A stretch of 64,000 nucleotides of DNA from Phallus indusiatus (lineage: Eukaryota > Basidiomycota > Agaricomycetes > Phallales > Phallaceae). The position numbers were made by a program, and so were the translations under genes. Numbering within the stretch: position 1 is the first letter of the stretch; every line of letters begins with the position of its first letter. Location: NCBI GenBank assembly GCA_027605045.1, contig JAQFWX010000011.1, positions 310,001-374,000 of the forward strand. Reading direction: 5' to 3'. Under the pieces are notes generated by a model. That model made no database searches. It was not told the DNA's origin and saw nothing but the letters and a program-made list of their open reading frames with translations. Shown in pieces: positions 29,858 to 43,253 of the stretch.

Positions 29858-30088
29858 ATTGGATCTTTCCCCCTTATCCTTCCTTGCTTTCTCGGTTTAA
29901 TCACCTCACTTTTTTGGCCTGCATTCATAGCGATATAAAACGTTTTATGACTTTTTTCTTGTTGACCTTTTATTTGATCTCTTTTCACTTGTAATATAGT
30001 CTCAAAGAAATCTAAGGCCGCTCGGCTATTTATAGTATTCGAGTATCTGGTCGAACTACGGAGCGTTTAAACCTTGGCCTAAGCTCTC

Positions 30089-32851
30089 ATGGCCACTCCC
30101 ACTATATCCTCCCTTATAGACCGAGGGGATATTCATAAATCCTGCAAGTCCCTCGAAACTGTCGCATCTATATTAGTCACTTATACTGAAACGCTCAACA
30201 CCCTTGTCTCGATCAATAAGAAACTCGCCAAAGCATTAAGAGATACCGCCGTCATCAAAGGCACTAACGGAATTCCTGGTAAGCTGATTGGAACTCTTAA
30301 AGAAATAGAACATTGGCAAACTGGGTCACTGCTATGCTTCTTTAAAGCCAATGCTTTGAATGCCAGTGCATGCATATTTGAAGCGTTGTACGAAGTTGAT
30401 ACCAAGTTTGTGAAGATCGCCGATAAGGAAGTGGACACATTAGCGGATGATATCAAGAAATGGTTCAAGAAATTAGCGGTCAGTACTTGTGATAGCCATA
30501 CATCTGTCTATGGTATGCTTAAATAAACTACACATGTAGAAGGAAGAGAAAGCTCATGATGAACGGCTGGCGAGTGCTAGTGCAAAATTGAAGCAGGCCG
30601 GTTAGTATAAACCGCGCTCATTAAGAACGCGTTATTCAAAATGTATTTAGGTCAAGCATACGAGAAGAAATCTAAACGAAAGGATGCAGATTTATCAGAG
30701 GAGCATAGTCGCTACTTGGCTGTCTTGAACACTCTTGGACCAGAAATGACTCAAGACAAACAGTGCGTCAATCTAGCCAATTTATGAACAGTTCATCAAC
30801 ATTATTTTCAAGGAATCATGCTATATTCGTAACCAATCGACACACAACGTTAATATCTCAAGTAGCGGCATCAATATCCAGACTCGCTGAAACAGAATGG
30901 GGTCGTGCTTGCGAACACGTACGCAAATTTGCGCCATTTGTGGGTGGCATTGGGGAGTGTAGGGCGCTCTGTGAAGGAGGTTGGAATGGTGACCTTCCGG
31001 CTGATTTGCCTGACGAGGGTGTGGATACAACAACTTCTTCAAATGATGAACCAACCAAGACAAAGCAAGATATTGGCCCTGATCTGATTTCTGGTTTACC
31101 ATCAACACCGACGGCTCTTGAACCCATTTCCTCTGACACAATTTCTTCACCCCAGAACGTTCGCTCACGATCTAATACTCTCCAGGTAATAGATAACACA
31201 CCAAAGCGAGATATATCTCAATCTCCTAGACAGACTCTCTTGTCTGCACCCGGGCGTGAGGATTCTGATGATAAGCGACCTTCCCCGGAGCTCTCTACAC
31301 TTGCCAGCACAGTTCCTCCTGACCCACCTACTGTGCAACGGTCCCCATCTCCATTTGACTACAGAGCTGGAACTATCACAGAGGAGCCTGAACAATCTGA
31401 ACAATTGGTATGCATCGTACTTCCGATTTCAGGGTACAAATGATTTTCTCATATCTATTTAGTCAGAACAGCAATCGACGAGAGAACCCAGTGCGGGCTC
31501 TAGTTCCAAAGAATCTAATCCCCAAAGTCAAGTCTCCAATGTGCCTCCCGGGGCTTTGTCTCCGTTTAGTAATAGAGTGCAGAAACTTCAGCCTCATCCA
31601 TCCCTAACGACTAAAGCGAATATTGACCCTATCGGAAAGCCTGCGTCGGTGTCAAATCAGTCCCGACCACTACCATTGCCCTCTCCAAAGGCAATCCGCC
31701 GGGTCGATTTGGAAAGAATGGAAAGCACGGACTCACTGACTAATAGAGTTGCAGCAATGAGGGATCGATATGACTCCAGAATGACGGTATGTACACGCGA
31801 AATCCGTCTTTGCAACTGAATATGATGATACGAACTGACTAAAATGTTGACAATTCTCCTTCAACAGGATGCTACTTCTGACCAAACACCTCGCGATTTT
31901 CCTCGTCCTAGTCAAAGAGTATCTGAGCTTGCAACTCGTTACATATCTCCGCCACTGGAGCCTAAAAGTCCGACGTCGTTACAAACGGGATTGGCTCATA
32001 GCGACCATTTCCCAACGTTTCAAGAACGGTATAGTCATAGTGGCGCTAAGTTCAGCAGGACCGTCGCAAGTAAACCTACTCCCGAGTCTTACAGACAAGT
32101 ATTGGAGCAAAATCCTCTTGCTGAGTATGAAGATGAAGTCTTGAAATACAGCGGAGTAACCTTGCAGGACCGGGATGGAGGATATCTTCGTAGACCTCTC
32201 GGCGATGAACGCTTTCAGATGCCCCGAACCGAATCGGCCTATTATGATGAAATGGGGGTTCGAACTCGTGATAACCTGATTCCTGGAACGCAAGAACTAC
32301 GTGCGAGAGAAGCTCTATTATTGGAACAGGAGCGACGAATTGAAGTAGAGCGAGAAAGATTATTATCAATGAGGGAATCTGTAGCTGCAGATGCCAATTC
32401 GCCATATGGCAGACGATATACCGAGTCGCCGCGCCCGTTCAGCTCTAATCAAGTGATTACACCTGAAGACCACCCATCCGACTGTGAATGTATGAGATGT
32501 TCTCAGCTGTACGTAACCAATGCTAGCCGTCAAGGGTCTAATCAACCCCTTCCGAGTCCGCTACGGCCTGGTGATACAGGGAGGCGACTAAGTGCCGGAC
32601 CTTCCCCCTTGTTAGGACATCCGGGGAGAAATATAGGAATGTCCATTGGAAATATATCAAGTCCCACCATCGCACATATGAATGTGCCTCCAGAAGACCC
32701 TACGCGTGGCGGACGGCGTCGTAGTTTTGACAACACGAACAATCGGAATCTTCAGACAAAGGTAACTGTAAATGACCAAATTTCCCCGCGCGATGGTCGA
32801 CACCGTAACGCGAAGAGCCAAGATTTTTTCACGAAGATGTTTATGCACTGA
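30089..32851 (+). CDS. BAR/IMD-like domain protein
   Basis: Six exons: 30089..30478, 30540..30600, 30651..30762, 30813..31407, 31463..31786, 31868..32851; 821 aa. The first 250 residues are helical and basic-charged, with the long-helix pattern of BAR or I-BAR (IMD) proteins: SLETVASILVTYTETLNTLV, KKWFKKLAKEEKAHDERLAS, then KQAGQAYEKKSKRKDADLSE. The rest is disordered and Ser/Pro-rich, with a short coiled coil (REALLLEQERRIEVERERLL) and a CxC..C patch (DCECMRCSQL) near residue 700. BAR-type proteins bend membranes, and fungal IMD proteins such as Ivy1 act at the vacuole. Assignment is by helix pattern, not by a definite motif. Confidence 0.6.
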
Positions 32852-33294
32852 TACCCTTTGTACCTGTACCTTTGTTTTGTTTTTTAACGACACATTTACG
32901 ACCATTGTTTATGATTTTTTTTATTACGCTATCTTATCTACTTACCGGAAGCTAAACAGAAGCAATTTTACTTTTATATGAATTCAATTGAAATAAATTC
33001 ATATTGAGACAATGGTTTGCTCCCTTTATTACATTTAATGTCACTGAGATATTACTTTGAATGCGGCAAAATTACAATTGATAAGGTTGTCGGAAGAAAG
33101 AGAAAAATGAAAAAGAAACTATGCCGAAGGAAACTGTCAGATGCAGAGTTGACGAATGTCGTGAAAAATGCTGTACTAGTGGTGAGATATGGCCAAATCG
33201 GTTCCGCGAAGAGTGTATGAAACAACGAAAAAAATATGATATCGATCTTGAAGGACTACGGGAGGGAAACGTGCTGCACATCATGCATCATGCG
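32852..33294. other. Convergent intergenic region
   Basis: 443 bp between the BAR-like gene and MED19. AT-rich, likely both 3' UTRs. Short open frames here have no support. Confidence 0.45.
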
Positions 33295-34551
33295 TCATGT
33301 TCCGTGGGGAGTCGGTTGTTGTAGAGGTAACGGTGGTGCCGGCTGAGGGGTTCCCGATCCCTGATACGCATCATAACTGAATTGAGGCAATCATTACGGA
33401 TAAGAAGAAACATACCAGTCGCCGTTTCTTTGGTGGTCTAGGCTGGCCGTTTGATACTGCCGAGTCTGGTGTTGGCATTTGAGATGGAAACATGGGCTGC
33501 AAATCCAGTTCTCTCTTTACTCCCCTCTGATCGGGAGCTGTTGCCGCGACTGGCGATGGCGTAGCTATAATTACACCATTCGTTTGCGAAGGTTTTGTTG
33601 AAGATACGATTGGAGTTGACACTGTCGGAGTTGGAGTTGCTCGTCCTGGGATTGAGCCGGGGTGAGGCGATGGCCGATTAAGTGGCTTTGGTTTAGTTAA
33701 CGGTGTTCCTGCCATATTACGAGCAACTGGACCGGGTGTACCGACCGCTCGCGGGGTTGATATAGAGGTGACAGCTGGTGTCGAGGCCGCCGAGCCAGAC
33801 ATTTGAGCCTGCTGCTGTTTCTGACGCTCCTCCTTTTCGGCTTTCCGGCGTTCCCGCTGTAAACGTGCTGAGAAAAATGAGATCTGTTAGGACCGGAAGG
33901 CAATACCTTCAAGCGTTTGGCTTCTTTCTCTTTTGGATCTGCGCCCTCGATGGAGGCTTTGTTATAAGTGGGAAGACCAGTCGGAGAGACATAAAAAGCT
34001 TCGCGCAGTGTTTTCTGATCAAGGAGTTGTATGTGTGCTTTCTGTTTTGGGGGAGCTTTCAGTAGATCTTGAAAATATTGATCCTTTTTCATTGGATGCT
34101 TTCCTTAAAGATTGATTTAGGATAGATACGACTAAAATTCAGACATGTAACCGCACCAGGGATTCCCTTTATGAGATGTTTGTAATTGTCCTTTTTCTTT
34201 TTCTTTTCCCCAGTCTCTCCCTCCTCTTCTCCGTCTTTGGCGGGAGTAGCAACAACACCTTCCTTCTCCTTGCCTTTGCCTGTTGACAAGTCTTGATCCG
34301 ATGGGAGGCGCAAGTGCGGTCTCACATGTTTGTCATACGCAGAGAGCAATCCGAATACACCGAGGAGGTCCTGAGTACAATGTAAATATTGTTTTGGACG
34401 GGGGAGTGCTATAGATCACAAGGTAATTGTGAGTAAAATAAATGCTGGTTGGCACAAGGAGGTTATTGAGCTTACATTGTGGCGCTGGGAAAACGGGGGG
34501 GAAATTTGACGGGCCTGCTTGCGCATTTGGATGTGAATCCAATCCGTCCAT
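33295..34551 (-). CDS. MED19: Mediator subunit 19 (Rox3-like)
   Basis: Head-module subunit of the Mediator coactivator of RNA polymerase II. Five exons: complement(33295..33360, 33416..33856, 33907..34103, 34157..34408, 34476..34551), 343 aa, exact frame closure. The Rox3/Med19 core is clear: TQDLLGVFGLLSAYDKHVRP near residue 38, KDNYKHLIKGIPGKHPMKKD near residues 98-117 (split by an intron in the PGK codon region) and YFQDLLKAPPK. A basic stretch, RERRKAEKEERQKQQQ, follows, then a Pro/Ser/Thr-rich tail ending in KKRRL and a Gln/Pro segment. Without the last intron the frame would run a further 13 codons to a stop, so the C-terminal 21 residues are a little less certain. Confidence 0.88.
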
Positions 34552-34957
34552 TCTGCCAGAAAAAAAAGCCAAAATGGAGAAAATAATTCACAAAGAAACC
34601 AAAAAAGTGCGGAAATCGACTTTTGGCTTGTGAAGATAGAGAAAGAATTGAAAGCAAGGGCTATTTTGGAAGTCCGCCGCTTGTCCATCTTAGCACATCA
34701 ATCATAGCCTGCTTAGTTAATTCAACCTTGGGGGGACGGCCGCTATTCTTGCTGTCCGAATTCTCACCAAAAGTTCGGTTTACATGTAGGACGATTATCT
34801 TGCCGAAGTTACTCAGGAGTGAATCCGAAACAGCGTTGTGCGTTGTTCGACGACGACGAGTTCGATTGCCGGACAGACGGCCCACGGGTTTAATTGCCAC
34901 GCGTAACGCATAACGCGCGTGACGTTCGACGCCAACGAAGACGACCCTTACAGGAAC
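34552..34957. promoter_or_regulatory. Divergent MED19/ERG28 promoter region
   Basis: 406 bp between divergent starts. An ACGCGT hexamer occurs at 34899-34904 inside a CpG-rich run close to the ERG28 start. No TATA box was seen. Confidence 0.35.
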
Positions 34958-35597
34958 ATGCTCGGTGCTCGTGAGTTTACATTCACTGCGAGGTCTCATG
35001 CTTTTCATTCCCAGTTTAATCCGGCATTGTCAGTTTTACCAACCGCGTCTGGTTTTCTCCCCAAGTGGCAGTTCTTTGTTGCCGCAACGGCGTTGTTCAA
35101 CAGCGTCCAAAACTTATTTGGCACTACATTAACAAAGCAGGTGTACGCTGGTAAACCGGCAGAAGGTATAAACAATGATTTTGCATTCTTTTTTAATTAT
35201 TCTGATGCCACGTAAAAATACCCCAAGTTACCGGTTTACAGGCTCGCACCTTTGCTAGCTGGACACTCGTGTCCGCGATAGTACGACTTTACGGCGCGTA
35301 CTACATTCACGAAAAAGCGTACGTGGCTTGTCACCTTTTTTGGAGTCTACAATGCCCTAATTGCGCACTACAGTGTATATGAATTGGCAATGTGGACATA
35401 CGCTGTTGCAATGCTTCATTTCGTTTCAGAATGGCTAGTTTTTGGTTCAGCTAAACTCAGCCGAGGTCTAATTGGACCTCTAATCATCGCACGTGAGTTA
35501 ACTCAAAGCTCTTTTTCGGGACTTATGTTAAACCGAATTTGTAGCATTGAGCCTTACTTGGATGGTTGCACAGTATGATCATTACGTTCAAAATTAG
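34958..35597 (+). CDS. ERG28: Ergosterol biosynthesis scaffold Erg28
   Basis: ER membrane scaffold that holds the C-4 demethylation enzymes of ergosterol synthesis together. Five exons: 34958..34970 (13 nt), 35034..35165, 35228..35318, 35374..35492, 35545..35597; 135 aa, the usual length. Family segments: LPKWQFFVAATALFNSVQN, VYAGKPAEVTGLQARTFASW, AIVRLYGAYYIHEKAVYELA and FVSEWLVFGSAKLS. At least three hydrophobic helices are present. The first exon codes only four complete residues. The stop is 46 bp from the stop of convergent CTU2, so the 3' UTRs must overlap or be very short. Confidence 0.93.
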
Positions 35598-35643
35598 ATC
35601 CCGCCTTCTTTTCAACATAAATCATCCCTTCAATTTTCCGATT

Positions 35644-37372
35644 TTAATTCATTTCTACTCCTGGAGAGTCCTCTAACAAAAAATCTCGTATCTGCTCTTC
35701 CATTTTTGGCCGAGACAGGCAGGATTTCAGATTAGAATCTGCCCATGACGGCAAGAGGACATGGCGATTATCTGTGCCATTTACCGTTGTTTTACCGCTC
35801 CTACGATTATTTCGACTGCTTAATGTTGTGTTGCACGCGTAGCATAGATTTGGGGCTAATTGAGATGAATCCGACTTCTCATCGTTAATTGTGCTGTCCT
35901 CTTTTAATTGGCGAATCGAAACACGCTCTTTCCACGCCTGATTGCCGCCTTGCGTGGGTCTGAACTCGAAATATCAGCCCCTCCGGATTGGGTCACTAGC
36001 ACTGAAACAAAGGGAATCCTACCTTTCGCATAATACACATCGTTCACCTGTTGAGTTGGATACCAGCTTGTTACACGTGCGAATGATCGCATTGACGGTC
36101 GAAGGATAATCGCGTTCCAGCCCATATATGAAATCTACCAAATGTTGGATATACCTATCAATATGAAAAATATTCGTACCTTTCGTTAGACCTCCTATGC
36201 TCTCTTTGGCGTTCGAGTGTGGGGATAAAAGAGTCCGTCGATTGGGAATCACAGACAAGTCCCGCCAGTGTAAGTATGCAGCGCATTCTTTCATAGAGAT
36301 TTCCCGTAAGGGGAGGACAAAACGAACAGTGTGCAGGTCTTGATCCTTCCAGTCCTCCCCTTTCTCCAGACCGATTGTAAACCCAGAACCGCTGGCCACG
36401 GATGTAATAAGATTGACGCTTAAAGCAGTGAGGGTTGTGCCCACGAGAACATGAGAGCAATTATGAGACCGTGCTGTCTTTAGAAGAAGTAGCCGCACAA
36501 GGGTTTTGATTGCGCTCTCTCGAGAAGAAGGTGTTGGAAGCGATGCGATGAAGTTTTTCAGAGACGAGCTTGAGCTCGAGGGAGTGGGTGATTGAGATAT
36601 TGGGAGATCTAAATTAGAATTAGATATTCCTATATAGCTCTACACAAAAGGATGCAGCCGGACATACTTTCATTCGACAAATCGACCATGATGCCTGCAT
36701 CTTGGAAACAGTCATCTAGCCGCAAGGGAAGAAAAAGAACATCTTCATCAAAATCCGCCACGAGGGACCTGACTTCGTCGGTTGAATCTTCCGTCTATAC
36801 CAACAATTAGTTTCGACTATAGAACACCCTAACATAATCTCAACTCGCATCGTAACACGCACTACAATCGATGTAGCATATAAAGATTCTTTCCCAAGGT
36901 CGTCCTCTCCTTCGAGGATGCTTGCGACCACCTTTAGGCCCGCCAGGAACCGCAGAGGCGAGATAGCAACGTTTTACAAGATCGATCAGAACCGTAGATC
37001 CTATTCCACCAGAAAATCCTATCAAGAGATCTCCAGGTGCTTTCAGCGACCCACGAGCAAGACCTTCGTCTAAGAAGTTTATGGTAGAATCTAATATTCC
37101 TCGAAATTTGGCGATCAATGTAGGCTCAAAGCATTCCCTAAAAGGACGTCATAAACATGAGTGGATAGTTCTCAGTGATATACAGGCGTACTTGCAGTAA
37201 GCAGCGTGCCGAATTACTAGTCTTCCGCGATTTGTCTTGCACTTCACACAAATTCCTTTAGGAGCAAACCGCCTCCGCCCTGCATATTGATTTAATATCT
37301 TATATTTAGGTTTCGTCGACCAAACTTACGAGGCATGACATCTTCATTTTCCAACGGTGTTGAACAAGACAT
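35644..37372 (-). CDS. CTU2: Cytoplasmic tRNA 2-thiolation protein 2 (Ncs2/Ctu2)
   Basis: Partner of Ctu1/Ncs6 in thiolating the wobble uridine of tRNA Lys, Glu and Gln. Seven exons: complement(35644..35959, 36023..36134, 36180..36608, 36668..36787, 36845..37137, 37192..37279, 37330..37372), 466 aa. The N-terminal zinc-type motif reads CVKCKTNRGRLVIRHAAYCKECF. The ATP-pyrophosphatase-like loop reads LLIGFSGGIGSTVLIDLV. The middle has SHNCSHVLVGTTLTALSVNL and FVLPLREISMKECAAYLHW. The C-terminus carries CVLCERPTQGG..AWKE and a further CYAC pair. The exon 3/4 junction (donor GTTGAG at 36844) is the least certain boundary, because two other donors in the same phase exist nearby. Confidence 0.88.
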
Positions 37373-37470: not shown

Positions 37471-40400
37471 ATGAGCAGATTTCATGCAAATTATGACCTT
37501 CCTACGCCTGCGCCAGATTCGCCACTAGCGAGGCGAAGACCATACCACTTCTCTACCCAATGCGCCACGGTAGAGAATCCCTCTCAAAAGGACCAGTACA
37601 ATGCAAGTTCTGTTCCAATATACCAAACTGCGACTTTCAAAGGAATGAATGGCGAGTACGATTACACTAGAAGTGGGAATCCTACGAGAAGTCACCTGGG
37701 TTCGATTTACTCCTTTATTTCCTTAGAGAGTAGCTGACGCCGTCTAATGTTGTGCTACGTGTAGAACACCATTTGGCTAAAATAGCATCGGCGCGGAATG
37801 CTTTTGCTGTTTCATCCGGAATGGCATGTTTGGATATCATTATACGTTTACTAAAGCCTGGAGATGAAGTTATTGCTGGGGATGACTTGTATGGTGGCAC
37901 GAACCGTCTCCTTGCCTATGTCAAAGACCATGGAGGTATCATCGTCCACCACGTTGATACCACGGACCCCACTTCCGTCCGCCCTTTTTTGAAGAAGGGA
38001 AAAACGGCAATGGTATTGTTGGAGAGTCCAACAAATCCACTGCTGAAAGTTGTAGATTTGGCCGCTATCGCTCGTGACGTACATGAGCATACACCGGACG
38101 CAATTGTTGTCGTTGATAATACCATGATGAGCCCGTATCTCCAGAGACCACTAGAACATGGTGCAGATATAGTCTATGATAGCGCAACTAAATATCTGAG
38201 CGGGCATCATGACCTTATGGCTGGTGTTGTCACTTGTGATAGAGAAGATCTAGCTAAGGTCATTATGAGTTTTTATTCTGGCATCTTCAAGAGCTTACCA
38301 ACGGTTTTTTACATTACAGAGGATTGCGTTTACTATCAACGCAGCAGGAAATGCGTTATCGCCCTTTGATTCGTTTCTTCTTCTCCGTGGTACTAAAACC
38401 CTTGCCATTCGCATGGATAGGCAACAGGCCACGGCGATTCAAGTAGCCGAATACCTGAATAAGATCGGTTTCCTGGTTCATTATCCTGGACTTCAAAATC
38501 ATCCGAACAGAGAAGTCCACGAGCGGCTGGCGAATGGTTCCGGCGCTGTTCTGAGCTTTGAAACAGGCGACAAGGAGTTAAGTTCGCGCATTGTTGGAAG
38601 TACGAAGTTATGGGGTATAAGTGTCAGTTTTGGTGCCGTCAATTCACTTATCAGCATGCCATGCGTTATGTCGTGCGTAACTCATTACTTATCTGACACT
38701 ATATCGGTACTAATCCCCTTTTATATATCGGCACTTTGATACAGACATGCTTCTATTGACGCTAAGACACGTGCGGAGCGTGGTCTTCCCGAGGACTTAA
38801 TTAGGCTATGTGTAGGCATTGAAGATCCCACGGACCTGATTGAAGATTTGGAACAAGCCATGCTCGAGGCGGGTGCTATCAAGCAAGCTGAGAATGGTCA
38901 GCTTGAAATCAACCAGAAAGGACTCGCGCACGCGTTAAAAGAATTGCAAGATATCGCAGTCACTCGTCATAACGAGTCACGAATTAAAGGTCCATGGTTG
39001 GTATCGGCTCCCGGAAAAGTAATCTTGTTCGGTGAACACGCCGTCGTCCATGGCGTTGTGAGTTAATTGTCACTTGCTGTGTTCTTAAAGGTTGATTTTT
39101 TGTTACGATAGACTGCAGTGGCTGCATCTGTTGATTTAAGATGTTATGGACTGATATGCCCAAGAGACGACGGCAAACTATCGTTGCGCCTTCCCGAAGT
39201 TGACGACTTTTCGCATACCTGGGATATCAGCGCTCTACCTTGGGAATCTACTTCAAATGTTCAACATGACAGCGCCAATATATCCGCCTTGGATCAGACA
39301 CTATTGGATGCTATCTCATCTAAAGCCTTGCCCACATCTCTTCAAACAGGCCAATCTCGGGCGAAAAATGCTGTTATCGCGTTCCTATATCTGTATATGT
39401 CGTTAGCGGACGGTGTCAATAGGCATGTCGTTTTTAGGCTTTTCTCGTGATCTCGTAGAAAACCTTTAATTTAGGCCTAGCGGCGATTTTTCGACACGAT
39501 CCGTACAACCAATTGGTGCGGGTCTTGGTTCATCCGCGTCGTACTCAACCTGTCTTGCTTTATCCATGTTACTTCTACACCAACGGCTACCAGCGTCAAC
39601 ACTCTATCGATCTTCTGAAAATACTGAACTACCCTATCAAGGCCGACGAGCTATTCCCCAGTCTACGGCGGAACAAATCAACCGATGGGCATTCATATCT
39701 GAAAAGGTGCTGCACGGGAATCCGAGCGGAGTGGATAACTCGACCGCAGTATTTGGTGGCGCAATCGCATTCACGAGAGATGGGTTTGGGAGAAAAGCAG
39801 GAATGGTTCAGATTCAGGGGTTCGTCTTGCTTAACTGCATTTGCTCATCACCTTCATGCTCACGGGGCGTTTGCAGATTTAAATCCCTCAGATTTTTGCT
39901 AACGGATTCTAAGGTCTCTCGTAACACTAAATTATTGGTTGAAGGTGTGGCAAAATTAAAACTGCGTGTAAGTTTCCATCGACTGGAACGTTCTTTTGGC
40001 TACATTTAAGCTTTCCTTAGGAACCGGATGTTGTAAATGGAATTTTGGATCAAATTCAAAGTATTAGTGAAGAAGCTCAGAGGGCATTGTCAGACTCGGA
40101 GCTTCCCAGAGAAAAGCTTATATCGGTTTTGTCTGTGAGTTGGGTACGAATTGGGCTGTTCTGATATGTCTCATAACGCTTTAAATAGAACCTGATTGAA
40201 AAGAATCACCGTTATCTGGTGTCGTTGGGAGTATCACACCCTTCGCTGGAAAAGATACGAGAGATCACGGCCAATGCACCATATGACCTGAAGACGAAGC
40301 TGACTGGTGCTGGCGGAGGAGGGTGTGCTGTTACCCTCATACCAGACAGTATGTGTTTGGAAAGATGTTTTCCATGGATATGACAAACTAAACATCGGGC

Positions 40401-40644
40401 AGATTTCGAAAACTCTTCTCTTGAAAAATTGAAGCAGGATCTCGTTGATGCCGGCTTTAATCCATATATCACTTCTGTCGGTGGCAGTGGAGTAGGAATC
40501 TCGTCTATTTCAAGCCCGACACGCCCATTGACACCTCCTGAAACATCTCCTGAAGAGATCTCCCTCAAACAACAGTTTGAAACTATACCTCAAGGAGAGC
40601 TAGTCAAATGGACGGCTGGCCAAGGAAGCTGGGCATATGTCTAA
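37471..40644 (+). CDS. Cystathionine beta-lyase :: mevalonate kinase fusion
   Basis: One gene with two enzymes in one frame. Ten exons: 37471..37699, 37765..38258, 38320..38672, 38745..39057, 39112..39422, 39475..39819, 39877..39967, 40021..40134, 40189..40348, 40403..40644; 883 aa. Residues 1-405 are a Cys/Met-metabolism PLP enzyme (STR3/MetC type): YDYTRSGNPTRSHLE, YGGTNRLL, and Schiff-base lysine 219 in SATKYLSGHHD. Residues about 442-883 are a GHMP kinase of the mevalonate kinase type: VSAPGKVILFGEHAVVHG, PIGAGLGSSAS (579-588), HGNPSGVDNS with Asp654, and GAGGGG (790-795). The junction lies inside exon 4; a linker of about 36 residues carries no stop and no methionine. Intron 5 fits only a GC-AG donor (GCATGT). 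The first half makes homocysteine from cystathionine; the second phosphorylates mevalonate in sterol synthesis. Confidence 0.9.
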
Positions 40645-40971: not shown

Positions 40972-43253
40972 ATGGAATCATCAGACTCTGACGCTCCCGT
41001 GCAGGTGCTTCGTGTCAAAGCCAAAAAGAACACCGTTCTGCAAAGCCACGGTCGTCGACCCTGGTAGATATTTTCTAAAGTCACATCTTTTATGTTCCCC
41101 GACATTTCCTAGGTATGGAGAGGATGGTAAACCGTTTACCGACGCTTTTGTGATTGGCATAGCAGGTAGATCTTTTCGAATATAGATTTTTTATGTCATT
41201 AACTCTTCTGCGAAGGCGGTTCCGCAAGCGGAAAGGTCATTGCCTTTTTTTTTGTGATGCCCGAGTCATTGCTGCTAGTGCTGAAACTCAACAGACACAC
41301 GTCGCCGAGCAAATCGTTCGTTCGTTGGGTTCAATACCGACTGTCGTCATTCTGTCACAGGTGCTAGCAATGTGCTTGACAAAGTATTGTAAACACCGCC
41401 ACTGAACCACGCGTAGGATAGCTTCTATAAGGAGCACAGTCCTGAAGAACTGGAATTGGCATTTGCAAATAATTATGACTTTGACCACCCCGATGCCATT
41501 GACATGCCCATGTTTGCTGCCGTAAGAACCGTCCAATTCGAGTATTAAACAGAATTTTCTCATTTTGTTCTTATCCAGTGCTTAAGGGATTTAAAATCGT
41601 GTAAACAAACTAATATACCCGTATATTCCTTCAAGGAACACCAAAGGCTTTCTGAATCAAAATACCTGTACGGTGCCGCTATCATCGTCACCGAAGGCAT
41701 CCTCGCGTTGCATGACCCTGCCATGCGCGCCCTATACGACCTAAAGGTATTTTTACTATGTCACATGATACCTTTACAGCTTGTCAACCCCTTTATTGCT
41801 TAGGTATTTGTTCAGTGCGACTCGGATCTTATGCTGGCACGTCGTATACGGCGCGATGTCTCGGAGCGCGGTAGAAGCGTTGAAGGCGTCCTAGAACAGT
41901 ATGTATGCCGAGTTTTTCGGATACACCCATGCCCAACGATAACTGCTAGATATTTGCGATTTGTGAAACCGGCATATGACAACTTTGTCGGGCCTTCTTC
42001 TAGATATGCCGATATAGTCAGTCGTTGCCAAACATGCTTCAAAAAAGCTCATAAAGACTTTGCTTCACAGATAGTTCCGGGCGCTGATAACGGCGTCGCC
42101 ATAGATTTGATAACCACGCACATCCACAAGAAGTTGCAGGACCGAGCTCGTCAAATACGGCCTAAGATAGCCCGGGGACTCTCAGGAAATCAAACTGGAG
42201 TCCACACCCCTGGAACGACTTCAGATCTTTTGGATCTCACTGCAATTCAGAAAACGCCACAGTTAGACGTATGTTATAACCAGGATAGAAAACCATTGCT
42301 GAAGAATATCGTAGGGTATTTATACAATTCTTCGAGATAAGAATACCACCAGAGGCGATTTCATCTTCTATGCGGATCGCTTATCTACTTACTTAGCAGA
42401 AAAGGCTATGGAATTGTTGCCTTTCAAACCGAAGACGGCGGAAACACCTGTGAACGCTGTTTCGCCTGGCAAGGAGCTGGATGTCGAGGTAAGTTTTAAT
42501 ACTCGCTATAAGTTCTCTAATCAATTCTACAAAACCCGTTGCAATAGTGCATTTGCGGCGTAACAATTCTACGGTCGTAAGTGGTTCTCAATACGAATAA
42601 AATGACGTTTTTCTGATTTGTTCAGAGGCGGGCCTCTTGAACGCGGCCTTCGTCGAGTCATACGAGATGTAGCTTTGGGCTCTCTTTTGATTCAGACGGA
42701 ACCCAAGTCAGGAGAACCACTTCTCCTTCATTCTATGCTACCAAACTGTGTTAAATTTCGGCATCTTGCACAAACGACATGGGTGCTTCTCCTGGATGCC
42801 CAGGTAATGCCTACCTTTTCCCTAAGTGTAATTTACTTCACCATCTTGACTACTGCTCCAAAGATTGGCACAGCAGCGTCGGCTATGATGGCGATCCGAG
42901 TACTCCTGGACCATGGTATCAACGAGGATAGAATCATTTTTATAACGTTTATTGTTGCACTGGACGGTGGTATATCTGTGCTTCGAAAAGCTTTTCCCAA
43001 AGTCAAGATTGTCACTGGCGCGGTAGACTCGAAATTGCGTATTGGTTGGTTAGACGAGAAAGAGGAAGAAGGAAAAGGGAGGAATGTTTGGGTTATTGGT
43101 GAGTTATCCTTGTTTCAGGAACTAAAGCCGACGTTGACTATCTCTTGAAAGAACCTGGAATGGGTCAAATAGGTATGTGAGACAAATATATGCTGGACCT
43201 TTCTCCTTCACCATATAACCATAATAATAATAGGGGATCGATATTATTTATAA
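40972..43253 (+). CDS. URK1: Uridine kinase with UPRT-like C-terminal domain
   Basis: Pyrimidine salvage enzyme phosphorylating uridine and cytidine. Fifteen exons: 40972..41063, 41113..41165, 41216..41235, 41295..41360, 41417..41521, 41579..41746, 41804..41898, 41950..42016, 42071..42268, 42315..42488, 42548..42573, 42626..42803, 42864..43098, 43152..43172, 43234..43253; 505 aa. Kinase domain: P-loop GGSASGKT (split by introns), DSFYKEH, YDFDHPDAID, EGILALHDP and RRIRRDVSERGRS. The C-terminal half is the uracil phosphoribosyltransferase-like domain: RGGPLERGLRR, IGTAASAMMAIRVLLDHG, ALDGGISVLRKAFP and the closing EPGMGQIGDRYY. This is the usual two-domain eukaryotic form. Exons of 20, 21, 20 and 26 nt make it hard for gene finders. 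Downstream it is convergent with the cyclin gene. Confidence 0.93.

Follow-up and report, generated by a model that had tools for sequence, protein, structure and literature searches.

A fusion of cystathionine beta-lyase (CBL) and mevalonate kinase (MVK), metC-MVK, was described in 2012 in Ganoderma lucidum and other Basidiomycota (Liu et al. 2012, PMC3342255). The available part of that paper reports metC-MVK in 12 basidiomycetes, Laccaria bicolor excepted, with a mean length of approximately 886 aa and a 16-residue insertion in the MVK of 7 of 12 fungi. In those basidiomycetes, metC-MVK is given there as the sole MVK and as the single best match to CBL. A second paper from 2012, as far as its available text goes, states that basidiomycete STR3 orthologs are extended at the C terminus by approximately 450 residues that resemble MVK and that this STR3-MVK fusion occurs in all basidiomycete STR3 orthologs examined except that of Postia placenta (PMC3468542). 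In the available excerpts of other papers, the fusion is reported in Lignosus (PMC4129116) and a unigene with both domains comes from Pleurocybella mycelium (PMC3720577); PMC3852974, in the part available, treats cystathionine beta-synthase, a different enzyme. The literature searched, with most subscription journals outside its scope, yielded no experimental test of the fusion.

Here, we describe a gene of this kind in a 64,000-nucleotide stretch of Phallus indusiatus DNA. The whole of this stretch is referred to as the window, and all coordinates are given within it. A preliminary description of the locus had read it as one gene in which CBL and MVK are joined and had implied that such a gene was new. 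The first part is borne out by an 883-aa gene model and by its relatives; the second is not, because the fusion was published in 2012. The CBL-MVK fusion has been known since then, and this locus is one more example of it. On the strength of its predicted protein, the gene is very probably orthologous to the metC-MVK (STR3-ERG12) fusion of Basidiomycota, encoding a bifunctional enzyme whose covalently linked halves act in the two pathways.

Gene model and relatives

The gene lies at 37471-40644 on the forward strand. Our splice model has ten exons, closes in frame with one stop, and encodes 883 aa (95.8 kDa), as the preliminary description had proposed. The predicted protein comprises CBL (residues ~25 to 398), a linker of ~43 residues (~399 to 441), and MVK (~442 to 838). 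In the splice model, exon 1 (37471..37699) carries the start codon at 37471 and CBL residues 1 to 77, exon 2 (37765..38258) the CBL core with the PLP lysine Lys219, which structure match and alignment also place there, and exon 3 (38320..38672) the CBL C-terminal domain. Exon 4 (38745..39057) holds the last part of CBL, the linker, and MVK motif 1, SAPGKVILFGEH (residues 446 to 457); its single open frame and the profile scores mark it as the fusion junction. The remaining exons encode MVK: exon 5 (39112..39422; splice model and alignment with relatives), exon 6 (39475..39819), which contains GAGLGSSAS, Glu643, and Asp654 (splice model, structure match, and alignment), exons 7 (39877..39967) and 8 (40021..40134), both from the splice model, exon 9 (40189..40348), which contains the GAGGGG motif at residues 790 to 795 (splice model and alignment), and exon 10 (40403..40644), where the splice model places the end of MVK, a C-terminal tail ending in WAYV, and the stop. 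All ten exons are on the forward strand.

Eight of the introns are GT-AG and one, intron 5 (39423-39474, with AG/GCATGT at its donor), is GC-AG. We adopted the GC donor because it restores residues that are seen in relatives, whereas models with GT donors are 7 or 10 residues short. Those models, of 876 or 873 aa, were ruled out by five aligned relatives that have at least 7 more residues at this place. A gene predictor that accepts only GT donors would drop at least 7 residues at this intron.

Relatives were sought with residues 400 to 876 of the 876-aa model as the query, which gave 1354 matches among 8000 scored candidates, and the best 120 were analysed. The preliminary description had raised the matter of other proteins with both domains, and PF01053 and PF00288 do occur together in 119 of the best 120 of the 1354 matches. 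The remaining one, P0089, begins inside the CBL end. The top match among the best 120 is a Clathrus columnatus protein, likewise a fusion of 883 aa, with 92.5% identity over CBL and 79.6% over MVK. This similarity probably places the window in the Phallales. Also among them is a Postia placenta protein (P0021) that lists both domains, unlike the exception made for this species in the available text of PMC3468542. In a further listing of relatives, 12 of 120 among the matches listed run on into MVK motif 1.

No complete stand-alone MVK of a named basidiomycete was present among the best 120 of 5066 matches (Inonotus P0153, 308 aa, left out). Four candidates were rejected: the sequence of Lentinula detonsa P0159 begins within the CBL end and that of Phaffia P0201 within MVK, and Rhodofomes P0146 and Ceratobasidium P0171 are both marked partial by the source. 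MVKs without PF01053 are found in Mortierella, Umbelopsis, and Rhizophagus among the same best 120 of 5066 matches, to be compared with the statement, in the available part of PMC3468542, that MVK elsewhere in fungi is confined to Ascomycota. Three further records, P0136, P0151, and P0152 (Lentinula aff. detonsa, L. detonsa, and L. guzmanii), are fusion-like, at 720 to 739 aa, with no PF00288 listing; GAGGGG and GAGLGSSAS are missing from them and GNPSG and SAPGK are kept. These may reflect errors in gene prediction or the decay of a second copy.

Junction and linker

Translation of 38745-39057 runs without a stop from the end of CBL through the linker into SAPGKVILFGEHAVVHGV of MVK. Only the coding frame of exon 4 is open, and each of the other two frames contains several stops. 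Between residues 380 and 470, the sole Met is Met398, where the CBL half ends, and the linker has none. This translation upholds the preliminary description, which had exon 4 joining the end of the lyase to the first GHMP motif through a linker with neither stop nor Met.

Three proteins, P0261 (Vanrija humicola), P0251, and P0254, continue from CBL into MVK motif 1 and cease to resemble the protein described here after the HGV at which exon 4 ends, which suggests a shared intron at that point. We take Vanrija to belong to the class Tremellomycetes, and these proteins suggest that the fusion extends to that class.

The locus could make two enzymes rather than one, either by cleavage of a precursor within the linker or by initiation of MVK at an internal Met; we consider this quite improbable. 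Met398 is present in the fusion protein and would offer such a start, but a Met at this position recurs in only 4 of the 120 listed relatives. Over positions 399 to 445, a Met is present in 26 of the 120 and absent in 94, a distribution that speaks against an internal start being conserved in the linker. The linker is also far less conserved than the domains (mean majority fraction among the 120 listed relatives, 0.50 for the linker, 0.85 for CBL, and 0.78 for MVK), but the fusion itself is kept in 119 of the best 120 matches. A spacer ahead of the C-terminal end has a majority fraction as low as that of the linker in the same 120 relatives. In a structure model of the Clathrus ortholog, part of the linker (417 to 438) has pLDDT <50, a value that says little because several domain segments, such as 25 to 84 and 339 to 352, are likewise below 50 and the pTM is modest (0.54).

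The two halves and their copies in the genome

Each half scores above the curated cut-off of the corresponding equivalog model: 551.7 bits with TIGR01329 for CBL (cut-off 487.5) and 210.8 bits with TIGR00549 for MVK (cut-off 163.05). In the CBL half, K219, D194, Y119, Y65, R67, and R379 are all present; we take K219 to be the PLP-binding lysine and the others to be neighbouring active-site residues. No substitution occurs at the scored CBL positions among the 120 listed relatives; each position has 1 to 9 gaps. K219 and D194 are found in 118 of these relatives, with gaps in the remaining two. In the MVK half, the GHMP motifs are present, including GAGGGG, and K450, S586, E643, D654, T699, G790, and G793 are identical in all 120 listed relatives. 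The first four of these are presumably the catalytic Lys, Ser, Glu, and Asp of MVK. The key residues named in the preliminary description are all in place, with Lys219 in SATKYL, Asp654 in GNPSGVDN, and GAGGGG where the model puts exon 9. Judged by conserved residues and profile scores, both halves look catalytically intact.

The nearest solved structure to the N-terminal half is PDB 1ibj (E 8e-106), which we take to be Arabidopsis cystathionine beta-lyase; unlike the fusion, it has 464 residues and no MVK. For the C-terminal half, the closest are PDB 1kvk (E 6.6e-71) and 2r3v (E 1.1e-70), presumably rat and human mevalonate kinase, which are not fused and whose match stops before the fungal C-terminal tail. 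This tail (40600-40644) ends in W(L/A)YV, with a Trp at position 880 in 120 of 120 listed fusion relatives. We rejected the tail as a fusion-specific feature: the strict pattern is found in 114 of 120 and the loose pattern in 120 of 120, yet MVKs of the Mortierella/Aspergillus type end, by eye, in Trp-containing aromatic motifs. The Trp-containing tail may be an older feature of fungal MVK.

The assembly has 206 contigs with a total of 67.2 Mb. Many of its PF01053 loci occur in contig pairs, as expected of two haplotypes. A six-frame search of the contigs with an MVK model, which weak exons may escape, found no second MVK gene. Its matches were the fusion gene, a galactokinase-like pair of loci, one of them scoring 158.8 bits with a galactokinase model (below the cut-off, on a partial ORF), and a homoserine kinase; the PF00288 matches at contigs C62/C135 and C34 are not among the MVK-model matches of the genome. 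With a CBL model, the fusion gene is by far the strongest match (229, 162, 52, and 52 bits for its exon pieces). Second is C173/C131, with 141 bits at best in its C173 copy, which scores best with a gamma-synthase model, below the cut-off of that model on a partial ORF. Because the search reads exon by exon, no match in the genome reaches the whole-protein cut-off, the fusion gene included. Further PF01053 loci, at C111/C72, C140/C65, C75/C151, and C56/C1 together with weaker ones, may provide further CBL activity. On the question of separate ERG12 and STR3 genes, which the preliminary description had posed, the answer is thus divided: there is no second MVK in this search and no comparably strong CBL, but other PF01053 loci exist.

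It is very unlikely that one half is catalytically dead and acts only as a scaffold or regulator. Such a role would fit the linking of two unrelated steps without obvious catalytic logic, but the scored catalytic residues of both halves are invariant in the relatives that cover them, both halves exceed their equivalog cut-offs, and no other MVK was found in the six-frame search of the genome.

The fusion gene is seen once in the assembly because the second-haplotype contig (C9), 99% identical over window positions 30000-37167, ends at ~37167, approximately 300 bases upstream of the gene; one allele is missing. This replaced an earlier reading of the single copy as a hemizygous gene. The junction is consequently known from a single assembled copy but has the support of relatives in many genera. 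The neighbours are a CTU2-like tRNA thiolation protein ORF (PF10288) at 36019-36639 on the reverse strand and, downstream, a uridine kinase/phosphoribulokinase family ORF (PF00485) at 41549-41803 on the forward strand. An assembly or gene-model artefact that fuses neighbouring genes is extremely unlikely, coverage by one haplotype notwithstanding, and is refuted in substance by independent orthologs, given that proteins of many genera among the listed relatives share the domain order and the junction and that independent publications, in their available parts, report the fusion (PMC3342255, PMC4129116, PMC3720577, PMC3468542).

Function and comparison with known systems

For a covalently linked bifunctional enzyme, one transcript would yield one polypeptide of approximately 96 kDa. 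Its N-terminal half would cleave cystathionine to homocysteine for methionine synthesis, its C-terminal half would phosphorylate mevalonate on the way to isoprenoids and sterols, and the linker, which is poorly conserved, would serve as a flexible tether. The CBL and MVK reactions share no metabolite, so the benefit of joining them more likely lies in co-expression, shared fate, or quaternary assembly than in channelling. Normally, CBL of this fold is tetrameric and MVK dimeric; therefore, the fusion could form larger assemblies.

In Basidiomycota, the fusion might go further and physically couple the control of methionine/SAM supply to isoprenoid flux. The CBL and MVK sites could, for instance, share an oligomer and the state of either could affect the other, such that sterol C-24 methylation and sterol precursor supply would vary together. 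We regard this coupling as unlikely. The fusion is a widely kept oddity of Basidiomycota in which enzymes of two unrelated pathways are tied together, and a functional tie would connect sulfur amino-acid metabolism directly with sterol metabolism in mushrooms.

The gene has CBL and a C-terminal MVK in common with the STR3 orthologs described in the available part of PMC3468542, and no difference from them was found within that text. Compared with metC-MVK as presented in the available part of PMC3342255, it has the same domain order and a length of 883 versus approximately 886 aa, and no essential difference was found; as with metC-MVK, the search of its genome found no other MVK and no better CBL match.
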